From: Microbulbifer litoralis
GTDB taxonomy: Bacteria; Pseudomonadota; Gammaproteobacteria; Pseudomonadales; Cellvibrionaceae
Length of the DNA stretch: 64,000 nt
Assembly (NCBI RefSeq): GCF_023634065.1
Contig: NZ_JALKCV010000001.1
Span: forward strand, 558,001 to 622,000
Direction: 5' to 3'
In this document: positions 18,932-63,318 of the stretch, one piece after another
Position numbering within the stretch: position 1 is the first letter of the stretch
How the letters are laid out: each line of letters opens with the position of its first letter
Translations under genes and position numbers: made by a program
The notes under the pieces: model-generated
Seen by the model: only the letters and a program-made list of their open reading frames with translations
What the model was told of the DNA's origin: nothing
Databases searched by the model: none

Positions 18932-19735
18932 CAAGCCTCTTCTGCCCAGGCGCAAGCATGGGGGGTTGCACCTTCACCGGGGCAACAAGGTGCAATCCCA
19001 TCATCCCCTGGGAATCCAGGGTCACGGCGCTCCATCGGCTTCAAAGCTGGCCCGGGAACAACTGACCGGAACTGGTGAACACAGTGAGTCCGACGGATGC
19101 CAGGAAAATGGCACTTTTGTACCATCTGCGGAATAAACCAGAAATTATCCGAAAGATTGAATCTCTACGATATCCCCGATACCGATTTCCCATCGGACAC
19201 AACCGGTTTAAACGCCAGAACACCGAGCGAACTAACCGCTACAAACAGAGTTTTTAATCGGTTGGAACTTAACTGTACGTTCTGCTGAGAAGAATTTCCC
19301 AGCCCGACCATACCAATGTCCTACCCCCCGGGACACACCTCGTTCTTACCCGAACAACCCGCCAAAAGACGCACGAATGTCTCAAAATGAAAACCCCAAA
19401 AAACAGGCAGAAGAAAGAGCCCCGGCTCAAATTGGAACTGACTTTCCAGCAAAAAAGAACTATATCCGACCCGGGAAGTAACAACGCATTACACCGTTTA
19501 AAAAGTGGCAAGAATTAAAACGGAGTGGAGGCCATTTGCCCCGTGTGCGACTGGATAGTGTCTACACTCCAAACCAAACTCTCAGATGATGAGTGATTCA
19601 TCTCAAACAACAACGATCTCCTGCGCCACGGCGCAGTTGACATGGGGTTAAAAGGTGACAGGGCCCGGACGGGAAAACCGGCATCAAGGCACAGGCATTC
19701 CGGACCGCGGGTCATTGTCAAAAATGGAGCGGCTT
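18932..19735. other. Long AT-rich intergenic region upstream of csgD
   Basis: About 800 bp without a supportable gene: short frames on both strands lack family features and ribosome sites. Base composition is clearly lower in GC than the flanks, and runs such as TTTTTAATCGGTTGG, AAAACCCCAAAAAAC and GTTTAAAAAGTGG recur. In enterobacteria csgD has one of the largest intergenic control regions known, with many regulators binding there. This region probably plays the same role. Confidence 0.5.
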
Positions 19736-20329
19736 ATGCCAATTCTTTTCTTCAGCGGTTCAGGCCTGCAAGGTGAACTGCTCTACTCACTGGTCTCAGA
19801 CGCGCTGCCATTCAACTGGGAAAAATCGGAAATCGGGAAACAGAAAAACTGCCTGCAGAATTATCGCGCCATCGTCATCGACTGCTGGCACCTGGCGACG
19901 AACGGAGAGGCCGGCAATATTCTCGACCTGTTGAGAAAGCTGAACCACCCGAGAATCCTCCTGATCAACTACCCGGCGGAATCCTCTATTCGCCTTGGCC
20001 AACAACTGAAGGGCAACAATACGCTACTGCTCTGTGATGCCAGTACCGATCGGGAAAGCCTTATCCGAAAACTGGGTACGGCCCTGCAGAACAGTGATCA
20101 TCCACCTCCCAATGAAACACGCGGCCAGTTGCTTTTGACTCCCCGGGAGCAGGAGATACTGACACAATTGACCACCGGTGAACCGAACAGTGTTATCGCA
20201 TCAAAGCTCCACCTGAGCGAGCACACCGTGAAGAACCATATGTACAACATCTTCCGCAAGATCGGCGTCAAAAACCGTTTGCAGGCGAGCAACTGGGCCA
20301 AATTGCATCTCCAGGCCGAGAAGATATGA
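19736..20329 (+). CDS. csgD: LuxR-family biofilm regulator CsgD
   Basis: A 197-residue regulator with an unorthodox N-terminal receiver-like domain (about 1-125, MPILFFSGSGLQGELLYSL) and a C-terminal LuxR/FixJ helix-turn-helix (LTPREQEILTQLTTGEPNSV, then ASKLHLSEHTVKNHMYNIF) at about 135-190. E. coli CsgD (216 aa) activates the curlin genes and cellulose synthesis. ATG 19736 has GGAG 6 nt upstream; in-frame ATGs at 19655 and 19724 are alternatives. It overlaps csgE by ATGA. All csg genes here run in one direction, unlike the divergent enterobacterial arrangement. Confidence 0.9.
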   Translation: MPILFFSGSGLQGELLYSLVSDALPFNWEKSEIGKQKNCLQNYRAIVIDCWHLATNGEAGNILDLLRKLNHPRILLINYPAESSIRLGQQLKGNNTLLLCDASTDRESLIRKLGTALQNSDHPPPNETRGQLLLTPREQEILTQLTTGEPNSVIASKLHLSEHTVKNHMYNIFRKIGVKNRLQASNWAKLHLQAEKI

Positions 20330-20766
20330 AACGCATGGCACTGTTATTCCTGCTTTTCCAACTGCCGTTGCAGGCCCAGGAAGAGACCGGGGACCCACAG
20401 GCTGTCGGCGAAAAACTGGATGACAGCGGGCGTATCGAGAATGAAATCAGCGGCTTCAACATCGACCGGACCATCACACGGACGGGCCATGACTTCGCGC
20501 GCTATATGAGTGCCTATCGCAATCTCCACTACCCCGACAGCGACTATAACCTCACGATTTACGAGAGGCCCTCCGCCCGCTGGGGCAACCTGATCTGGGT
20601 CACCTACAACAACAAGACCGTTTTCCGGCGCTTTATCAGCCCCAGCACGAACGATATCCGAAAGCTGGCGGAAGAGGTATCGAAACATGTCCACGAAGTA
20701 GTGCTACAGGAAAAGGTGCGCAACGCGCTGATCGATCACTACGACCTCGGAAAGGATGAATTCTGA
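20326..20766 (+). CDS. csgE: Curli assembly chaperone CsgE
   Basis: A 146-residue periplasmic protein with a signal peptide ending near LQA. The family hallmark is in the middle: YERPSARWGNLIWVTYNN, nearly matching NERPSARWGSW of E. coli CsgE, and the C-terminus ends in KDEF like the HDEF of E. coli. CsgE caps the CsgG channel from the periplasm and selects curlin substrates. It is coupled to csgD (four-base overlap) and to csgF (one-base TGATG overlap). Confidence 0.95.
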   Translation: MKRMALLFLLFQLPLQAQEETGDPQAVGEKLDDSGRIENEISGFNIDRTITRTGHDFARYMSAYRNLHYPDSDYNLTIYERPSARWGNLIWVTYNNKTVFRRFISPSTNDIRKLAEEVSKHVHEVVLQEKVRNALIDHYDLGKDEF

Positions 20767-21191
20767 TGAAGACGACAGATCCAAAATGGCGGGCCGCTCC
20801 ACTGGCCCCATTACTTCTCCTGAGCGGCGGACTGGCCTCGGCCACGGAGCTGATCTATGAGCCGGTAAACCCCAACTTCGGCGGCAATCCGCTGAACGGC
20901 AGCTACCTGCTGTCCAACGCCCAGGCGCAGGACACGCACGAGGATCCCGATGCGCCGGAAGACCTCTATGAACAGCCCAGCCCGCTGGACCGCTTCACGG
21001 ACTCCCTGGAAACGCGCCTGCTGAATCAGTTGCTGACCGATGTGGGTAACGGTAACAGCGGCGAGCTGGTGACCGACGACTTCATTGTCCAGATCCTCGA
21101 CAACGACGGCGTACTGACGGTACTGGTAACCGACCGCAACACCGGCGACAAAAGTGAAATCGTAGTCAGCGGACTGAACCCGACAAATTAA
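20766..21191 (+). CDS. csgF: Curli assembly/nucleation factor CsgF
   Basis: A 141-residue exported protein. After the signal peptide comes the CsgF N-terminal segment YEPVNPNFGGNPLNGSYLL, then SNAQAQD, then SPLDRFTDSLETRLLNQLL, DDFIVQI and VLVTDRNTGDKSEIVVSGL, all close to E. coli CsgF motifs. The N-terminal segment inserts in the CsgG channel while the rest anchors the nucleator at the cell surface. It sits between csgE and csgG as in other curli loci. Confidence 0.96.
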   Translation: MKTTDPKWRAAPLAPLLLLSGGLASATELIYEPVNPNFGGNPLNGSYLLSNAQAQDTHEDPDAPEDLYEQPSPLDRFTDSLETRLLNQLLTDVGNGNSGELVTDDFIVQILDNDGVLTVLVTDRNTGDKSEIVVSGLNPTN

Positions 21192-21234
21192 CGCCTCAGC
21201 TTCACTCTGATAAGAATTACTGGAGAGAAAGGCA

Positions 21235-22104
21235 ATGCGTATTGCGATAACAAGGTTTGCCTTGCCCCTGCTGGCAACCGCAGTCACATTGGGCGGCTGC
21301 ACCGCCGTCAAGAGCACTGGCGACGCGTTGTTCGGTCCCGGGAAAAGTGACGCCCAGCTGACCCCGAGGACGGGCACCTACAAGGACCTGATCAACCTGC
21401 CCCAACCCAAGGGCAAGATACTGGCGGCGGTCTACGGTTTCCGCGACCAGACGGGCCAGTACAAGCCCGCCCCGAACAGCAGCTTTTCCACTGCGGTAAC
21501 CCAGGGCGGCGCCTCCATGTTGATGGATGTGCTCAATGAATCCGGCTGGTTTATCCCGCTGGAACGCGAAGGCCTGCAGAACCTCCTGACAGAGCGCAAG
21601 ATCATCCGTGCCGGCCTGAACAAACCCAATGCCCCCGCCAACAACAACAGTCCGCTGCCGTCGCTGGTGGCCGCCAATATCCTGCTGGAAGGGGGAATCG
21701 TCGCCTACGACACCAATATCCGCACCGGCGGTGCCGGGGCCCGCTACTTCGGCATCGGTATCGACGACCAGTATCGTGTGGACCAGGTGACCGTCAACCT
21801 CCGCGCCATCGATATCCGCTCCGGCCGCATACTGCACTCGGTACTGACCTCCAAAACGGTCTATTCCAAGGCCATCAGCGCCGATGTCTATCGCTTCATC
21901 AAGTTCCGGCGGTTGCTGGAAATGGAGGCCGGCACCACCACCAACGAGCCGGCGCAACTGGCCATGTTGTCGGCAATGGAGTCGGCGGTCATCCACCTGA
22001 TCAGCGAGGGAATTGTCAGCAATTCCTGGGCCCTGGCCAATCCGGACGAGATCAACAACCCGATTCTGCAGTACTACCTCAACGAAAGCACTTACATCAT
22101 GTAA
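21235..22104 (+). CDS. csgG: Curli secretion channel lipoprotein CsgG
   Basis: A 289-residue outer-membrane lipoprotein with lipobox LGGC (Cys22). Typical CsgG segments follow: ILAAVYGFRDQTGQYKP, FSTAVTQGGASMLMDVLNES, WFIPLEREGLQNLLTERKI, LEGGIVAYDTNIRTGGAGAR and VNLRAIDIRSGRILHSV. Nonameric CsgG forms the diffusion channel through which unfolded curlin subunits leave the cell. The length is close to E. coli CsgG (277 aa). It lies 43 bp after csgF and 73 bp before the first curlin-repeat gene. Confidence 0.97.
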   Translation: MRIAITRFALPLLATAVTLGGCTAVKSTGDALFGPGKSDAQLTPRTGTYKDLINLPQPKGKILAAVYGFRDQTGQYKPAPNSSFSTAVTQGGASMLMDVLNESGWFIPLEREGLQNLLTERKIIRAGLNKPNAPANNNSPLPSLVAANILLEGGIVAYDTNIRTGGAGARYFGIGIDDQYRVDQVTVNLRAIDIRSGRILHSVLTSKTVYSKAISADVYRFIKFRRLLEMEAGTTTNEPAQLAMLSAMESAVIHLISEGIVSNSWALANPDEINNPILQYYLNESTYIM

Positions 22105-22177
22105 ACCGGTGCCGCTATTGAACATTGCCGATGCACGCAGCCTGCGCCGGCCGGGCGCCAGAGTGAGATTTCCACCG

Positions 22178-22723
22178 ATGAGAATTGCGCATTCAATTGC
22201 CGTCCGCGCACTGACCCTGCTGTTTGCCGGCGGCCCCTGTGGTATTGCCGGTGCCCAGGACCTGGCGCCCGGCTCGGAACTGGCCAACAGCAGCGAGCTG
22301 GATTACAGCAGTACAGCTTCATTGGCCAACCTGGCAATGATTCTCCAGGACGGCAATTTCAACCGGGTGGATGCCAGACAATACGGCCTGCTGAACTACC
22401 TCTCCGTTCTCCAGAGTGGCCAGCAGAATACCCTGTCGGTCATCCAGTCCGGGGGGGAGAATTCGGTGATTGCCCGCCAGTTGGGCGAAAGCAACATCGC
22501 CGCACTGCTGCAGGCCGGGTATGAAAACTTTATCCAGCTGAACCAGGTGGGCTACGCCAATACCGCGGGCGTATCCCAGGTCGGCATCCGGAACTCCGCC
22601 CAGGTCAGTGAAATAGGCGTTCGCCACAATGTGGACATCTACCAGAGCGGCAATGGCCTGACGACCTCGGTGACCGTCACCGGCGCCACTGCCGCCAATG
22701 TAACGGTCAATCAATACGACTGA
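22178..22723 (+). CDS. csgB: Curlin-repeat protein, CsgB-like nucleator (minor subunit)
   Basis: A 181-residue exported protein. The signal peptide ends about IAGAQ; the mature part holds about ten curlin half-repeats with the pattern Q-x-G-x-x-N, for example ILQDGNFNRVDARQYGLLN, VLQSGQQNTLSVIQSGGEN and NQVGYANTAGVSQVGIRN. The size and position directly after csgG and ahead of larger curlins suggest CsgB, the surface nucleator. ATG 22178 is weakly supplied with a ribosome site. It ends in NVTVNQYD rather than the positively charged tail of E. coli CsgB, so the assignment is by repeats and context. Confidence 0.75.
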   Translation: MRIAHSIAVRALTLLFAGGPCGIAGAQDLAPGSELANSSELDYSSTASLANLAMILQDGNFNRVDARQYGLLNYLSVLQSGQQNTLSVIQSGGENSVIARQLGESNIAALLQAGYENFIQLNQVGYANTAGVSQVGIRNSAQVSEIGVRHNVDIYQSGNGLTTSVTVTGATAANVTVNQYD

Positions 22724-22742
22724 TAAAGGTTGGGAACTCAAC

Positions 22743-23633
22743 GTGAAAATCCTTTCCGCAACTGCCGCGCCACTGCTGCTGATCGCGAGCGTTACCGCAA
22801 CCGCGGCCGACAACAGCGCCGAACAGACCCAGGATGGCACGGGCAATACCGCCTACGCCGAACAGATCGAGCCCGGCGCTTCCGACAACAGCCTGATCCA
22901 GGAACAGGACGGAGCCTACAATACCCTTACTGCGGGCCAGAGGGAGGAGTCCGACAGCAGTATCGAACAAATCCAGGAAGGCTTCCTGAACTCTGCCACC
23001 AGCCTGCAGCTGGGGGGGTCCGGCAATAGCAGCGCGATCTACCAGCTGGGCGTCCGCAACAGCGCCGGCACCCTGCAGAAGGTCGCTGTGGACAACCGCG
23101 CCATCTCCGAACAGCGGGGTTACGACAACCAGTCCGAAATCCAACAGGACCTCGGCATCGGCAACACGGCGGCTACAGAGCAGCGCGGGCAGGTGCACAG
23201 CGCCTCCATCTCACAGGTCTCCAGCTATCACAGCGAGGCCTATATCGATCAGCACGGCACCGACAACGAGGCCGATATCGCGCAGACCGGCGTCGGTCAT
23301 TTTTCCAGTGCCGGGCAACAGGGTGCCTTCAACCGTGCCGACATAGACCAGGCGGGCGAATTCCAGGAAGCCGATATCGCCCAGAGCGGCTTTGCCAACG
23401 GCACTGTTGTGATCCAGGAAGACCTGTACAACAGTGCCATCGTGACCCAGGATGGCTCTTTCAATACGGCCGCCGTGCGGCAGACCGGCACCCTCGGTAT
23501 GGGCGGCAGCCACCTTTCCGTGATCAGCCAGTCCGGCAGCCTGAATGAAACCGCGATCATCCAGGCCGGCTCCTCCTCCTCGGCAATAGTGACCCAATCG
23601 GGCAGCGGTAACTCCGTGTCTCTGGTGCACTGA
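22743..23633 (+). CDS. Curlin-repeat amyloid subunit 1 (CsgA-like)
   Basis: A 296-residue exported protein: signal peptide to about ATAA, then roughly 22 curlin half-repeats of 11-12 residues (QTGVGHFSSAGQQGAFNRA, IVTQDGSFNTAAVRQTG). E. coli CsgA has five full repeats in 151 residues, so this subunit should form a much longer beta-solenoid. It shares a block with subunit 3 (SYHSEAYIDQHG...NEADIAQ and GSHLSVISQSGSLNE), showing paralogy. The start is GTG 22743, 19 bp after the CsgB-like gene, so the two are co-transcribed. Confidence 0.88.
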   Translation: MKILSATAAPLLLIASVTATAADNSAEQTQDGTGNTAYAEQIEPGASDNSLIQEQDGAYNTLTAGQREESDSSIEQIQEGFLNSATSLQLGGSGNSSAIYQLGVRNSAGTLQKVAVDNRAISEQRGYDNQSEIQQDLGIGNTAATEQRGQVHSASISQVSSYHSEAYIDQHGTDNEADIAQTGVGHFSSAGQQGAFNRADIDQAGEFQEADIAQSGFANGTVVIQEDLYNSAIVTQDGSFNTAAVRQTGTLGMGGSHLSVISQSGSLNETAIIQAGSSSSAIVTQSGSGNSVSLVH

Positions 23634-24234
23634 ACAAGACCCGCAGTGCACTCCGGCAACGCCGGGTAAAACCTTCCATTCCGGGGCGCGGCGTATGCGC
23701 CCCATCGACGAAACCACAGTCGATTCCCCACAGCAGGCAACCCCGGACGGAAACAGCGACTCCCCCGGGCACCCCCTGCCCCGTTCCCAGCATCCAAAAG
23801 CACAACTGTTCAAAAATCGAACTTTTTTCCTAGTGTTTCGACACTTCTCTCCTATGGCCACCTCCCGATTGAGCAGCAAGACTCAATACATCTTCAGGTC
23901 AAACTTTGAACAGTTTGATTGATTTGTAAACTCCCAACCAAAGTCACCGTCGCCTGAGTCGCCGCCAGCGGAGCCTCTACCGGCAGTACTACAGGGAGCC
24001 AAGGCCACCTTCAGACGAATCGGGGCCAGTCGGGTTTCCCCATCCGGAAACGTGCCGTTGCGCGGGATGGGAAAGATGAAAAGTTTCAGCAGCGAAGCCA
24101 GTGGCGGGCCGGGTGACGACCGCCACTCCGCTGACCCAGACATGGTGCAGGGATCTGCGCCATTGTAAATCGGTACGGCCAGCAGGGTACGTACTGATTC
24201 TTCCAACGTCGGACGTAAGTGAAAGGAGCAACAC
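23634..24234 (+). promoter_or_regulatory. Intergenic leader upstream of curlin subunit 2
   Basis: Six hundred bases with no supportable gene. GGGGCGC (23683-23689) and GCGCCCC (23697-23703) form a hairpin after subunit 1. From about 23811 the sequence CAAAAATCGAACTTTTTTCC and the CACTTCTCTCCTAT that follows resemble 26566-26615 upstream of subunit 4, in the same order. Subunit 2 therefore probably has its own promoter and a long 5' leader related to that of subunit 4. No binding site was identified with certainty. Confidence 0.5.
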
Positions 24235-25116
24235 ATGAAGACGTTTTCCCCGATCGCCGCAGCAGTACTTCTTGCAGCAAGCGGTAGTGTTCTGGCAGAC
24301 AACAACATGGCCACCAAAAGCCAACTGGGTATCGGCAACGATGCCATTTCCGTTCAGGCTGGCGGTGACGTAAACAACAACGAAACCAACCAAACCCAGG
24401 TAGGTCTCTTCAACGACTCCCTGGCAATCCAGACTGGTGGTGAAGATTTCGGTGATATCGATCACCTGCAAATCGGCATTGCCAACGACGCTTTCTCCCT
24501 GCAGGCGGGCGGTAACTTCAACGATGCCACAGTGACCCAAGTGGGTGCCGGCAACGATGGTGCCACCGTACAGCTGGGCGAAAACTTCAGTGACGCCACT
24601 GTCATGCAGGTCGGCTTTGGCAACGACGGTGTCGTTCGCCAGGTTGGTGGTGCCTTCAACGATGGTGAAGTCAACCAGACAGGCGCAGGCAACGAAGGTG
24701 AAGTCAACCAGATCTTCGCTTTCTTCTCCGACGCCCTGGTGGACCAGGACGGTATTGCCAACGATGCCGACACTGACCAGAGCGGCGCCTTCCACGATGC
24801 CGAGACCTACCAGAACGGTATCGCCAACGACGCGTGGACTGACCAGGTCGGCCTGGGCCACGACTCACTGACCGTACAGAATGGTATCGTGAACGATTCC
24901 GACGTGACCCAACTGGGTGCGTTCCACGATCAGTACACCTTCCAGACCGGTCTCGCCAACGACTCTGTAACCTTCCAGGCCGGATTCAATCAGCTGTCTG
25001 TTACCAGCCAGCTGGGTATTGCCAACGACAGCATCACCCTGCAGTTCGTTACCAACAGCAATACTTCCATTACCGGACAGGTTGGTATCGGCAACTTCGC
25101 TTTGACAGTCCAGTAA
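24235..25116 (+). CDS. Curlin-repeat amyloid subunit 2, Asp-rich (CsgA-like)
   Basis: A 293-residue exported protein with a signal peptide ending VLA and ATG 24235 behind AAAGGAG. Its half-repeats are unusual: the Asn position is nearly always followed by Asp (GIGNDAIS, GLFNDSLA, GIANDAFS, GFGNDGVV, GIANDSIT), giving a highly acidic mature protein, and Gln-x-Gly strands alternate with them. About 22 half-repeats are visible. The acidity could favour Ca2+ or salt tolerance in seawater (inference). It has its own upstream region and a strong hairpin downstream, so it is probably an independent transcription unit. Confidence 0.87.
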   Translation: MKTFSPIAAAVLLAASGSVLADNNMATKSQLGIGNDAISVQAGGDVNNNETNQTQVGLFNDSLAIQTGGEDFGDIDHLQIGIANDAFSLQAGGNFNDATVTQVGAGNDGATVQLGENFSDATVMQVGFGNDGVVRQVGGAFNDGEVNQTGAGNEGEVNQIFAFFSDALVDQDGIANDADTDQSGAFHDAETYQNGIANDAWTDQVGLGHDSLTVQNGIVNDSDVTQLGAFHDQYTFQTGLANDSVTFQAGFNQLSVTSQLGIANDSITLQFVTNSNTSITGQVGIGNFALTVQ

Positions 25117-25139
25117 GCGCGTTTTATTGCTGGAACAAT

Positions 25140-25164
25140 GGGGCGGCCACACGGCCGCCCCTTT
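25140..25164 (+). terminator. Rho-independent terminator after curlin subunit 2
   Basis: GGGGCGGCC (25140-25148), loop ACAC, GGCCGCCCC (25153-25161), then TTTG. The stem is strong with a short T tract, and nearly the same stem recurs after subunit 4 at 27858. Confidence 0.75.
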
Positions 25165-25254
25165 GTCGATCTGAAATTGCGATACCAGTGGTAACGGCAA
25201 CAACCGGCCCACCAGTAAACAGATCCTTTGAAGTGAGAAGTAAAGGAGCCACCG

Positions 25255-26136
25255 GTGAAAACACTTACTCCTATCGCCGCCACACTGATGTTGGCCACAA
25301 GCGGACTTGTTGCAGCGGCAGACAATACGGCGATTACCAACCAGAATGGCATCGACAACGAGGCCGTGGCCGACCAGGACGATCCGGGATCCAGCGGAAA
25401 CCTGATCCAGCTGGAACAGGGCGGCGCCTTCAACAATGCCGAGGCCAGCCAGCGCGGAGAAACGGAAAGCCATATCTACCAGGTGCAGGACGGGTTGGCG
25501 AACGAGGCCTACTCCCTGCAGATGAACGGCACCGGCAATATCGCCAACATTCACCAGTCCGGGGCCTTCAACGAGGCCTCCACCTGGCAGCTGGACAACG
25601 ACGACAGCGAGGCAACCATCCGGCAGAATGGCTTTGCCAACGATGCCGAGATTTACCAGGTGGCCGGCGGAGACAATGTGGCGGTCATCGAGCAGATGGG
25701 CTCCGTTCACGGCGCCTCCATCGGCCAGTATGCCAGTTACAACTCCGATGCCTATATCTACCAGAGTGGTGTCGGCAACGAGGCGGACATCCTGCAATCG
25801 GGTACCGGGCACTACTCGAGCATTCACCAGGACGGCCTTGCCAACACGGCGATCTCTGCCCAGGGTGACCTCCACAACACATCCGAGATTTACCAGAGCG
25901 GCTTTGGCAATGAGGCCCAGGTGACCCAGGTATCCTGGTACAACACCGCGGTCGTCAACCAGCGCGGCTTTCTCAACAGCGCCGATGTCTATCAGTTCGG
26001 CCCGAGCGGCAGTCACCTGGCAATCATCAACCAGTCCGGTGGTCTCAACGAGGCGACCGTCATACAGAGCGGCTACGCCGAGACGGCGAACATCACTCAA
26101 AACGGTATAGGAAATAACGCTGTCGTTATCCAGTGA
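25255..26136 (+). CDS. Curlin-repeat amyloid subunit 3 (CsgA-like)
   Basis: A 293-residue exported protein starting at GTG 25255 behind AAAGGAG; the signal peptide ends near VAAA. About 22 half-repeats follow (YQSGVGNEADILQSGTGHY, IYQSGFGNEAQVTQ, ITQNGIGNNAVVIQ). It is most similar to subunit 1: both have the SYxSxAYIxQxG and GSHLxxIxQSGxLNEA blocks at equivalent positions. It lies 138 bp after subunit 2, beyond a terminator-like hairpin, and shares the MKT-(L/F)-(S/T)-PIAA signal start with subunits 2 and 4. Confidence 0.88.
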   Translation: MKTLTPIAATLMLATSGLVAAADNTAITNQNGIDNEAVADQDDPGSSGNLIQLEQGGAFNNAEASQRGETESHIYQVQDGLANEAYSLQMNGTGNIANIHQSGAFNEASTWQLDNDDSEATIRQNGFANDAEIYQVAGGDNVAVIEQMGSVHGASIGQYASYNSDAYIYQSGVGNEADILQSGTGHYSSIHQDGLANTAISAQGDLHNTSEIYQSGFGNEAQVTQVSWYNTAVVNQRGFLNSADVYQFGPSGSHLAIINQSGGLNEATVIQSGYAETANITQNGIGNNAVVIQ

Positions 26137-26177
26137 CGCAAGGCGCACTAAACCGTTTGCAGGCGGTGGATCGTCGG

Positions 26178-26200
26178 GGCGGATGCCCTGGCCGTCCGCC
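26178..26200 (+). terminator. Hairpin after curlin subunit 3
   Basis: GGCGGA (26178-26183) and TCCGCC (26195-26200) form a GC-rich stem 40 bp after the stop codon. There is no clear T tract, so terminator activity is a guess from its place. Confidence 0.4.
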
Positions 26201-26235
26201 GCTCCACTTCCCCGGATTACTGTCTTGAGCCCCTG

Positions 26236-26399
26236 CTAGTGGTCCATGCGGAAAGTTTGGTGACTAAGGAGCACAGCCAAAGTGTTCAGATCAAGGCGAG
26301 AAAGCGCAGGAATAGTGGTTCTATTTCAAGCTTTCTCAACGCAGAGCTGGACGCTTTGGCGACGCGAACAGTTACACAACTTTCCGCATGGACCACTAG
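26236..26399. mobile_element. MITE-like element with 22-bp perfect terminal inverted repeats
   Basis: CTAGTGGTCCATGCGGAAAG (first 20 bases of 26236-26257) is exactly inverted at 26378-26399. The 164-bp element lies between curlin subunits 3 and 4, has no coding capacity and has lower GC than the flanks. Its interior (aaagcgcaggaatagtggttc) reads like a decayed or non-autonomous transposon. If CTAG is a target duplication the element proper starts at 26240; because CTAG is itself palindromic, the sequence cannot decide. Confidence 0.7.
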
Positions 26400-26909
26400 G
26401 GCTGCTCTGCATGCCTTCTCTTCAGGGCGGCTTTTCAGAACCACTTCCCCGACCTGGTTCCGCACCAACTTTACCGTCTCTCACAGGTGCCGCTCACCCT
26501 ACTGACGGCTCCAACCAAAAGAATCATGGCTGTAATTTTTCAGGAAATGACAGTTGCGCAATTTTCATCAAAAACAAGACTTTTTTCCCACCATATTTGG
26601 CACTTCCCTCTCATAGCGAAAGCAAAACGCCACGACAAGAATAATGGGGAGACAACCTGTTTTTAAGGATCTTCAGCCACCAATGGATTGGCCTTCCGAA
26701 ACAACCCTATTGATCCCGTCCGGAAACGCGACCTCCCGAGCAGGCCGCGGGCGGGGAAGATTTACAGCGGGCTTACGTGCCGGACCGGCATTGCTCCTCC
26801 GCTGTAAAGCCCGATGGCACCGGCACTGGTGCCATTTCAAGCCGGCTTGATTCAAGCCGGAATTCATCGACGTCAGAGCTCATTGAAGTTTGTAGTAATG
26901 GAGACACTC
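26400..26909 (+). promoter_or_regulatory. Intergenic leader upstream of curlin subunit 4
   Basis: No gene is supported. CAAAAACAAGACTTTTTTCC at about 26566, with the GGCACTTCCCTCTCAT that follows, matches the region 23811-23860 upstream of subunit 2. GTCCGGAAACGCG at about 26717 parallels ATCCGGAAACGTG at about 24042. The shared order of motifs suggests a duplicated promoter and leader. The start-proximal part contains short inverted repeats (gccggcttgattcaagccgg). Confidence 0.5.
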
Positions 26910-27788
26910 ATGAAGACGTTAACCCCCATCGCCGCGGCCATTTTGCTGACCATCGGCGGTACGGCATTTGCCGAGGACAACACCGCGGTGCAGAACCAGG
27001 TCGGTGTAGGCAACTCGGCTTCCGCAACCCAGACAGGCCACGCCACCAAGAAGAACCTGATCGAACAGGATCAACACGGTTTCTTCAACAACGCGGATGC
27101 CACCCAGAGTGCCGAACGCCACAGCACCATTTACCAGCAGCAGGACGGCGCCCATAACGACGCCTACTCCCTGCAGGCGCACGGTGCCCACAATACCAGC
27201 ACCAGTATGCAGAGTGGCATTGGCAACTATTCCAGCACCACCCAGATTTCCCAACTCGGCAGCACCGCCACCACCATGCAGTACGGCGTGGGCAACAAGG
27301 CCTCTACACTACAGCTGGCAGGTGTCGGCAATACGTCCACCATTGACCAGTCCGGCTTCTTCAACAAGGCCGACGTAACCCAGGTCCTGAGCTTCCACTC
27401 CAATGCCTCGATTACCCAGACAGGTCTGGGTAATGATGCCTCGGCCAAGCAGAGCGGTTTCGGCCAGGACTCAAGCATCGACCAGGATGGCAAATTCAAC
27501 CATGCCAGCACTACCCAGCTGCACGGGTTCGGCAACGATGCGACCATCCTGCAATCCGGCTTTGGCAACAAGGCATCCATGCTTCAGATAGGCATCCACA
27601 ACGAGGCACTGGGCTTTCAGAAAGGCTTCGCGAACAAGCTGAATGTATGTCAGGACGGGGTCGGCCACCTGGCTGTTTCCTCCCAGCTCGGCCTCTTCAA
27701 CAAGGTGAGCATTTCCCAGGTAGGCCATCACGAGTCGGCCTACACAACCCAGGTGGGTATCGCCAACCACGCCAAGGTCTGGCAGTAA
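26910..27788 (+). CDS. Curlin-repeat amyloid subunit 4 (CsgA-like)
   Basis: A 292-residue exported protein; ATG 26910 follows GGAG at 6 nt, and an upstream in-frame ATG at 26814 would spoil the signal peptide. The signal peptide ends AFA. About 23 half-repeats follow, such as NQVGVGNSASATQTG, MQYGVGNKASTLQLAGVGN and ILQSGFGNKASMLQIG. It is richer in Lys and His than the other three and has a single Cys in LNVCQDG, unusual for curlins. It ends in GIANHAKVWQ. It could be a specialised major or capping subunit (inference). Confidence 0.87.
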   Translation: MKTLTPIAAAILLTIGGTAFAEDNTAVQNQVGVGNSASATQTGHATKKNLIEQDQHGFFNNADATQSAERHSTIYQQQDGAHNDAYSLQAHGAHNTSTSMQSGIGNYSSTTQISQLGSTATTMQYGVGNKASTLQLAGVGNTSTIDQSGFFNKADVTQVLSFHSNASITQTGLGNDASAKQSGFGQDSSIDQDGKFNHASTTQLHGFGNDATILQSGFGNKASMLQIGIHNEALGFQKGFANKLNVCQDGVGHLAVSSQLGLFNKVSISQVGHHESAYTTQVGIANHAKVWQ

Positions 27789-27857
27789 CCCTGCGAACCT
27801 GTTGACGTGGTTTACTGTGCAGATAACAGCAATCACTTTGCGCAGTCCACAAAAACC

Positions 27858-27886
27858 AAGGGCGGCCAGAGGCCGCCCTTGTTTTT
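27858..27886. terminator. Bidirectional terminator between curlin subunit 4 and greA
   Basis: AAGGGCGGCC (27858-27867), loop AGA, GGCCGCCCTT (27871-27880), then GTTTTT; on the other strand the stem is followed by GGTTTTTG. It serves the convergent csg and greA transcripts. Confidence 0.9.
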
Positions 27887-63259: not shown

Positions 63260-63318
63260 CAGGGCCAGGTCGTCCTGGGCATCAGTACCCGATTATGGGG
63301 GAGGTCGTCCTCCTTCAG
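63260..63318 (-). ncRNA. Guanidine-II (mini-ykkC) riboswitch
   Basis: On the reverse strand two hairpins with ACGA loops occur in order: GGAGG-ACGA-CCTCC (63313-63300) and CCAGG-ACGA-CCTGG (63278-63265), separated by 21 nt. Both show the ACGR tetraloop pattern that defines this riboswitch class. The ribosome site GGAGCGG and ATG 63240 follow 25 nt later. Guanidine binding brings the loops together and exposes the ribosome site. Confidence 0.93.

Follow-up and report, generated by a model that had tools for sequence, protein, structure and literature searches.

A common upstream element and RNA leader in the curli locus

The curli locus of Microbulbifer litoralis contains four long curlin subunit genes, here called A1 to A4, and a pair of shared upstream features suggests that the products of A2/A3 and A4 are made together rather than as alternatives. 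The DNA analysed is a stretch of 64,000 nucleotides ("the window" below; positions 558,001 to 622,000 of contig NZ_JALKCV010000001.1, assembly GCF_023634065.1), and the locus occupies its positions 19724-27788, where nine genes (csgD, csgE, csgF, csgG, csgB and then A1-A4) lie in a single direction on the + strand. The A2-A3 unit and the A4 unit each stand behind the same direct-repeat element and the same two-hairpin RNA leader, as judged from conserved sequence and covariation respectively, and csgB and A1 are without the element. Our best explanation of the locus as a whole, to which we give a probability of about 0.6, is a machinery part plus A2/A3 and A4 units that are jointly controlled and whose subunits co-assemble. 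The shared features are the following:

23821-23858, + strand: curlin upstream element before A2, direct repeat ACTTTTTTCC / ACTTCTCTCC
24125-24214, + strand: two-hairpin RNA leader before A2 (covariance model R1, 51.9 bits)
26579-26617, + strand: curlin upstream element before A4
26797-26878, + strand: two-hairpin RNA leader before A4 (covariance model R1, 50.8 bits)

The element is 38-39 bp long, is common to the A2 and A4 gaps, and is a direct repeat (ACTTTYTTCC...ACTTCYCTCCTATAGC) whose start-to-start spacing is mostly 22 bp. Its distribution was followed through 48 Microbulbifer genomes, of which 41 have a csgE match; from 40 genomes a stretch of at most 20 kb was taken around the better csgE match, the window itself being the 41st locus, and the subunit groups named here are those of the tree described below. 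A fuzzy pattern finds 57 places in the 41 loci, every one of the 57 on the coding strand, and a looser limit raises the number to 66, again all on the coding strand (66/66). At this looser limit the element precedes every one of the 38 A2-group genes with at least 200 nt of gap before them and none of the four with a shorter gap; among last-slot genes it precedes 15 of 20, and among unclassified subunits 11 of 12. It was found before none of 29 A1 genes, 37 A3 genes and 40 short curlin genes (39 csgB-like genes and one 115-residue fragment). About 20 positions of the element are kept across the genus.

An exact pattern, searched through whole genomes, is present at 60 places in 38 of the 48 (reversed control, 0), that is in 38 of the 41 genomes with a csgE match and in none of the seven without one. 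Fifty of these places are inside csg loci, where 49 stand 212-454 nt ahead of a subunit gene and one stands ahead of a 239-codon curlin frame. All ten places outside csg loci precede a curlin-repeat frame, at 233-579 nt from its first possible start. In this way the DNA pattern by itself led to curlin genes away from the main locus. Among 293 genomes sampled from the order the exact pattern is present in six of seven Microbulbifer genomes and in none of 286 others, and 71 csgG loci of other genera hold no copy at up to 3 substitutions. A 12-spacer form, sought in the M. litoralis genome with up to 3 mismatches, recovers the A2 copy only. The genus-wide and curlin-only placement therefore identifies the element as a cis element of curlin genes in Microbulbifer. 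The ten curlin-repeat genes that follow it outside the csg locus (L188-L197) include, by eye, one conserved gene of about 300 residues in L188-L192 and another of 451 residues in L195-L197.

The element is perhaps the site of an activator, and naming CsgD as that activator would be a guess. Some 20-80 nt after the element, at 23877-23936 in the window and in its orthologues, there is a conserved block with CAAnACTC and GATCA motifs, which may hold the real promoter. We also considered a third hairpin 20-60 nt after the element in 38 sequences; it is a sequence motif at best and we do not claim it.

The leader lies directly before A2 and A4 and consists of two hairpins and a conserved AACGTC box. 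A short anchor gave 45 candidates among the 140 long subunit genes of the surveyed loci, and 42 of these were aligned; the three excluded were two anchors judged to be chance, one ahead of A1 in L155 and one ahead of A3 in L161, and a weak copy at 11443-11523 of L150, which later scored 23.0 bits. In the alignment 93.0% of the stem cells are paired, against 23.5-48.2% when the stems are slid by 1-3 columns, and both sides have altered in 10 of the 13 pairs, as expected of compensatory changes; these pair counts ignore the relatedness of the sequences, for which the slid control corrects in part. None of 500 shuffles attains any of five measures of leader pairing. The single-strand fold of the A4 leader (26745-26912) is moderately better than those of shuffles (z -2.65).

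Searched over the whole M. litoralis genome, the covariance model gives 51.9 bits at A2 (expectation value (E) 3.0e-10) and 50.8 bits at A4 (E 5.9e-10), and its third place, at 19.9 bits (E 0.11), is at chance level. The 42 aligned leaders match their own model by construction; beyond them it finds matches at the leader position before A2 of L156 (46.3 bits) and in L173 (29.0 bits), L150 (23.0 bits) and L178 (19.4 bits). Across the genus there are 44 places in 32 of the 48 genomes, all of them within the csg locus by coordinate. The model finds no leader before the ten curlin genes outside the csg locus (best E 0.14) or in the 71 csgG loci of other genera (best E 0.76). In an order sample of 194 genomes it matches three of five from Microbulbifer and, weakly (23.5-30.9 bits), five of 189 others. 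Two of the five weak matches are wholly inside a long reading frame and three are intergenic; one is terminator-like and lies behind a chaperonin gene (genes named by eye), and no curlin frame was found near any of the five. We take them to be chance hits on plain stem-loops, and the leader model alone is therefore not fully specific.

Neither the A2 nor the A4 leader matches a family in Rfam 15, whose sole weak match (RAGATH-5, 20.7 bits against a cut-off of 50) is at 26179-26213, outside the leader. A GGA of the CsrA/RsmA type is present in the first leader loop in a minority of the aligned rows (by eye). Hairpin 1 often starts with ATGG and can be read as a short frame; we rejected a leader peptide because frame and stop both vary and, in several rows with an intact stem, the ATG has disappeared (by eye). 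A bolder proposal, with the odds against it, is that the two-hairpin leader represents a cis-regulatory RNA of a new class, found only at curli genes of Microbulbifer, and that it and the element might together form an amyloid-subunit regulon that sets the ratio of subunits in a mixed fibre.

Genes of the locus

The nine genes are listed here with the profile scores of their products:

19724-20329, + strand: csgD-like regulator of the LuxR/GerE type (GerE 69.4 bits; PRK10100 81.6 bits)
20326-20766, + strand: csgE (Pfam CsgE, 101 bits)
20766-21191, + strand: csgF (Pfam CsgF, 110 bits)
21235-22104, + strand: csgG, secretion channel (Pfam CsgG, 254 bits)
22178-22723, + strand: csgB-like curlin gene, 181 residues, presumed nucleator (Curlin_rpt 50.4 bits)
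22743-23633, + strand: curlin subunit A1, 296 residues, GTG start, 19 nt after csgB (Curlin_rpt 93.8 bits)
24235-25116, + strand: curlin subunit A2, 293 residues, predicted solenoid (Curlin_rpt 23.7 bits)
25255-26136, + strand: curlin subunit A3, 293 residues, GTG start (Curlin_rpt 101 bits)
26910-27788, + strand: curlin subunit A4, 292 residues, the least acidic and richest in His/Lys (Curlin_rpt 82.2 bits)

These family matches bear out the first-pass annotation of this DNA, which had read csgDEFG followed by a 181-residue CsgB-like protein and four curlin proteins of 292-296 residues. A CsgG channel, the accessory proteins CsgE and CsgF, and curlin-repeat subunits are all recognised by profile scores, and on this sequence evidence the locus is a curli (type VIII secretion) system. 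The csgG gene is 89% identical to that of Microbulbifer donghaiensis, which has the closest csgG locus, and the nearest csgG loci also place the genome in Microbulbifer. The name csgD is given because of the gene's position and a partial match to the CsgD model (NCBIfam equivalog PRK10100), whose 81.6 bits are under the cut-off of 250 and cover only the C-terminal DNA-binding part; its start at 19724 is the first Met of the short form, the start at 19736 in the first-pass annotation being the next Met. The single direction and the absence of csgC had also been noted from the sequence, and both hold: all genes are on the + strand, and no csgC match was found anywhere in the genome by a search that does give a match in E. 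coli. Within the Gammaproteobacteria csgC is found only in Enterobacteriales and Aeromonadales according to the passages cited from Dueholm 2012 (PMC3521004), so it is not defining for a curli system.

The intergenic gaps of the subunit region measure 601 nt before A2, 138 nt between A2 and A3, and 773 nt before A4. Three hairpins are found there and behind the locus:

23683-23703, + strand: G+C hairpin lacking a T run, 49 nt behind A1
25135-25166, + strand: strong G+C hairpin between A2 and A3, resembling a terminator or stabiliser, with a weak T tail
27857-27881, + strand: terminator-like hairpin behind A4, readable on both strands (consensus match only)

A strong hairpin no more than 70 nt behind the gene is present in 37 of the 42 genes of the A2 group. 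Scans for promoters and terminators of consensus type returned 3 promoter-like sites against 3.9 expected and 9 terminators against 10.8 expected; with no more sites than expected, these scans are uninformative.

Curlin subunits: repeats, fold and charge

The csgB product and A1-A4 all exceed the Curlin_rpt cut-off of 20.7 bits, although A2 passes narrowly at 23.7 bits and none of its individual stretches passes alone; the eight curlin-repeat matches in the genome at E <= 0.001 are all in this locus and none comes from A2. The repeats are also evident as a ladder of glutamines, which with steps of 10-14 residues has 20 rungs in A1, 24 in each of A2, A3 and A4, and 8 in B. When each step is limited strictly to 11-12 residues, the ladders have 18, 20, 18, 22 and 8 rungs in A1, A2, A3, A4 and B, and the maxima among 500 composition shuffles of each are 7, 6, 6, 6 and 5; chains of 8-22 in the proteins thus compare with at most 7 in shuffles. 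About 22 half-repeats had been proposed for each of the four subunits. The repeats themselves are far above shuffles, and the ladder of 24 rungs gives A2-A4 about 24 half-repeats rather than 22, with 20 in A1. Signal peptides of the subunits were judged by our own hydrophobicity rule only.

AlphaFold predicts a confident 24-strand solenoid both for A2 (mean predicted local distance difference test score (pLDDT) 93.6, from 11 sequences, with five models at 76.6-93.6) and for A4 (pLDDT 94.1, from 6 sequences). The best solved structure for the A2 model by Foldseek is CsgA of Pontibacter korlensis (8c50), at E 2.4e-8 and a template modelling score of 0.60 by query length. Mean column entropies within the A1, A2 and A3 groups are 0.0-2.0 bits at the motif positions of the half-repeat (N at -6, -4 and -2, Q at 0, G at +2) and 2.0-2.8 bits at those in between (-5, -3, -1, +1, +3); the same arrangement, a core that varies little and a surface that varies much, has been described for CsgA in the passages cited from Sleutel 2023 (PMC10192328). 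On this view A1-A4 would build the fibre as solenoids with some 12 rungs apiece (10-12 in A1), in which the core is nearly invariant and the surface free; the fold itself is predicted for A2 and A4. When A2, A3 and A4 of the window are compared with one another (A1 was left out), half-repeats in corresponding places resemble each other more (0.412) than those in different places (0.311), as duplication of entire genes with about 12 repeats would produce.

The four subunits had further been described as paralogous and differently charged. They are indeed old, divergent paralogues that share a solenoid core, but all of them are acidic, with net charges (K+R-D-E) in the window of -24 for A1, -32 for A2, -27 for A3 and about -6 for A4. 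Across the genus the mean charges are -14.3 +/- 3.9 for A1, -13.8 +/- 6.9 for A2, -18.0 +/- 4.9 for A3 and -14.2 +/- 6.3 for the fourth-slot group (128 of the 140 subunits, 12 of a length outside 260-330 residues being omitted). Charge is not conserved by slot, and we rejected it as a distinguishing mark of the slots.

History of the paralogues in Microbulbifer

The four-long-subunit layout is common in Microbulbifer. The 140 long subunits come from 39 loci, the window among them, and 33 of the 39 hold three or four; there is one subunit in one locus (L176, which lies near a contig end), two in one, three in eighteen, four in fifteen, five in two, six in one and seven in one. In 2 of the 40 other loci (L186 and L187, the latter a 6.7 kb piece ended by the contig end) our own curlin pattern finds no curlin gene. 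Of 37 A3 genes, 29 are preceded by a gap of 69-157 nt, and the gaps before A2 and A4 are mostly several hundred nt.

In a tree of the 128 subunits of 260-330 residues, grouping is largely by position, and the paralogues are therefore old. The 29 first-slot genes form the A1 clade, which is nested within the third-slot (A3) group of 37 genes; the A2 clade has 42 members, second-slot genes plus some extra copies; and the 20 remaining subunits, mostly of the last slot, are scattered over several places. Slot A1 is present in 29 of the 39 loci, A2 in 37 and A3 in 37. From these relationships, A2 and A3 at least predate the spread of the genus, and the last slot has a more mixed past.

The variable parts of this history are what one would expect of dosage or of neutral birth and death, in which extra copies raise the amount of a single kind of fibre and diverge without separate roles. 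Copy number varies from 1 to 7 over the 39 loci, slots have been lost or shortened (A1 is absent from 10 of the 39, and L157 has a frame of 239 codons), and the fourth slot is mixed in the tree. On the other hand, neutral turnover accounts poorly for the order A1-A2-A3 in 28 of the 39 loci, for the grouping by slot and for a length kept at 280-299 residues in 101 of the 140 subunits, and we consider this explanation unlikely. The shortened frame, a last-slot curlin frame at about 10670-11386 of L157 (reverse complement; 239 codons stop to stop), keeps its METLMK start and its upstream element.

Our curlin pattern finds no subunit in 29 of the 71 csgG loci of other genera; it is therefore insensitive in Pseudomonas, and we draw no comparison of copy number.

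Proposed joint control and possible mixed fibres

We propose that the locus is split into three parts: csgDEFG-csgB-A1, which would supply machinery and nucleator, an A2-A3 unit and an A4 unit. To judge from their families, CsgG, CsgE and CsgF would export the curlin proteins, CsgB would nucleate, and A1-A4 would build the fibre by amyloid growth. One activator, perhaps CsgD itself, would switch on A2/A3 and A4 jointly through the element, and the hairpin leader would set the stability or the translation of the mRNA. The subunits would then be added to common fibres seeded by CsgB, forming mixed or block polymers with a surface that varies with the paralogue.

The first-pass annotation had also raised the possibility of heteropolymeric or of switchable fibres. 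Heteropolymers may form here; switching would mean that each subunit is expressed under its own condition and gives a fibre with its own surface. The free variation of surface positions around a kept core would suit such switching, the gaps of 601 and 773 nt give room for separate control, and since A1, A3 and csgB are without the element, at least A1 may answer other signals. However, the element and leader common to A2 (with A3 behind it) and A4 predict joint expression and disfavour switching; A3 follows A2 at 138 nt and lacks a separate element, and slot charge is not conserved. We hold switching to be rather improbable. That the element and hairpins are passive, non-regulatory relics, copied when a single gene was duplicated along with its 5' region, is very unlikely: A2 and A4 are paralogous with both parts ahead of both, but the stems show compensatory changes in 10 of 13 pairs, about 20 element positions are kept genus-wide and on the coding strand only (57/57, and 66/66 at the looser limit), and the element is also ahead of diverged curlin genes at ten other places without a leader match.

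Several observations weigh against joint control and co-assembly. A strong hairpin follows A1 in just 2 of 29 cases, one of them the window's own without a T run, and with hairpins so scarce there, transcription from csgDEFG-csgB-A1 may run on into A2. No clear -35/-10 pair is seen in the element, which could be an operator at some distance from the promoter, and no CsgD site was found in the passages of PMC6611641 and PMC10002515 in which one was sought. Five of the 20 genes of the fourth-slot group are without the element at the limit used, and two of the 66 looser-limit places have no subunit within 1000 nt by our own pattern (one is in L174, and the other precedes the 239-codon curlin frame, which the pattern missed). 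Leader matches are absent in seven csg-bearing genomes (G003, G004, G009, G010, G014, G049 and G051), and the fold of the A2 leader by itself beats those of shuffles by a moderate margin only (z -2.09, with 5 of 200 as good). A1 has been lost from a quarter of the loci (10/39), and the fourth slot is heterogeneous in the tree. With regard to structure, the A2 model is superposed on 8c50 at a root-mean-square deviation of 12.5 (Foldseek), and the E. coli CsgA fibril 8enq matches it at E 0.95 only. Finally, it is purely by inference that a shared core with a divergent surface would permit mixed fibres.

Relationship to other curli systems

Curli are a model functional amyloid and have been studied mostly with one CsgA. 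Several paralogues of near-equal length under one control element are a natural system in which to ask whether curli fibres are mixed and how the ratio of subunits is set, and also whether an amyloid subunit is under the control of a structured leader RNA. The csgDEFG-csgBAC system of E. coli and Salmonella likewise has csgD, E, F, G and B and curlin subunits, with a CsgB-like nucleator and the same repeat core. The Microbulbifer locus differs from it in its single direction, its lack of csgC, and its shared upstream element and RNA leader, and also in having four subunits of about 24 half-repeats where there is one of 4-5 repeats in that system, as given in the passages cited from PMC3521004.

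There is no support for regarding the length and number of the subunits, the one-directional layout or the lack of csgC, all pointed out in the first-pass annotation, as unusual in kind. The cited passages of Dueholm 2012 (PMC3521004) describe CsgA homologues that reach 529 residues and 22 repeat motifs, as many as six homologues of csgA/B, and one-directional curli operons in Aeromonadales and Oceanospirillales; extra csgA copies, often in additional operons, are proposed there to modulate fibre properties. Those of Sleutel 2023 (PMC10192328) report up to 30 CsgA copies per genome. Both thus have long, multi-copy CsgA as here, and a shared cis element or RNA leader is unmentioned in the passages cited from either. 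CsgA R15.5 of P. korlensis (8c50), which has the same solenoid fold by Foldseek and acidic ladders (PMC10192328, in part), differs in that its 15.5 repeats are in one protein and that it comes from another phylum. Control at the RNA level has a precedent in the tandem glycine and c-di-GMP-I riboswitches ahead of curlin-related genes, including csgG, in the passages cited from PMC9481103; these are of known classes, whereas the leaders here match no Rfam family. A literature search limited to titles and the openings of abstracts gave, among the matches listed, no Microbulbifer curli and no structured csgA leader. What looks new is therefore the leader RNA, together with an element that recurs throughout the genus and also has curlin targets away from the csg locus; long and numerous CsgA proteins, the idea of fibre tuning and a precedent for RNA control were known.

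Other observations

A second, distant csgE match (34-39% identity) is present in 11 of the 48 genomes (G003, G004, G006, G009, G010, G014, G049, G051, G056, G058 and G059) and perhaps belongs to a second curli system. Five of these genomes (G003, G004, G009, G010 and G014) have 24-45 curlin-repeat matches each, compared with eight in that of M. litoralis. In L186 there is a csgE-like gene at 2378-2851, with no csgF, csgG or curlin genes recognised by eye among the neighbouring open reading frames; it is possibly a remnant of a lost curli locus. Near the end of the window, at 63265-63316 on the - strand, lies a Guanidine-II riboswitch whose 35.6 bits reach the gathering score.

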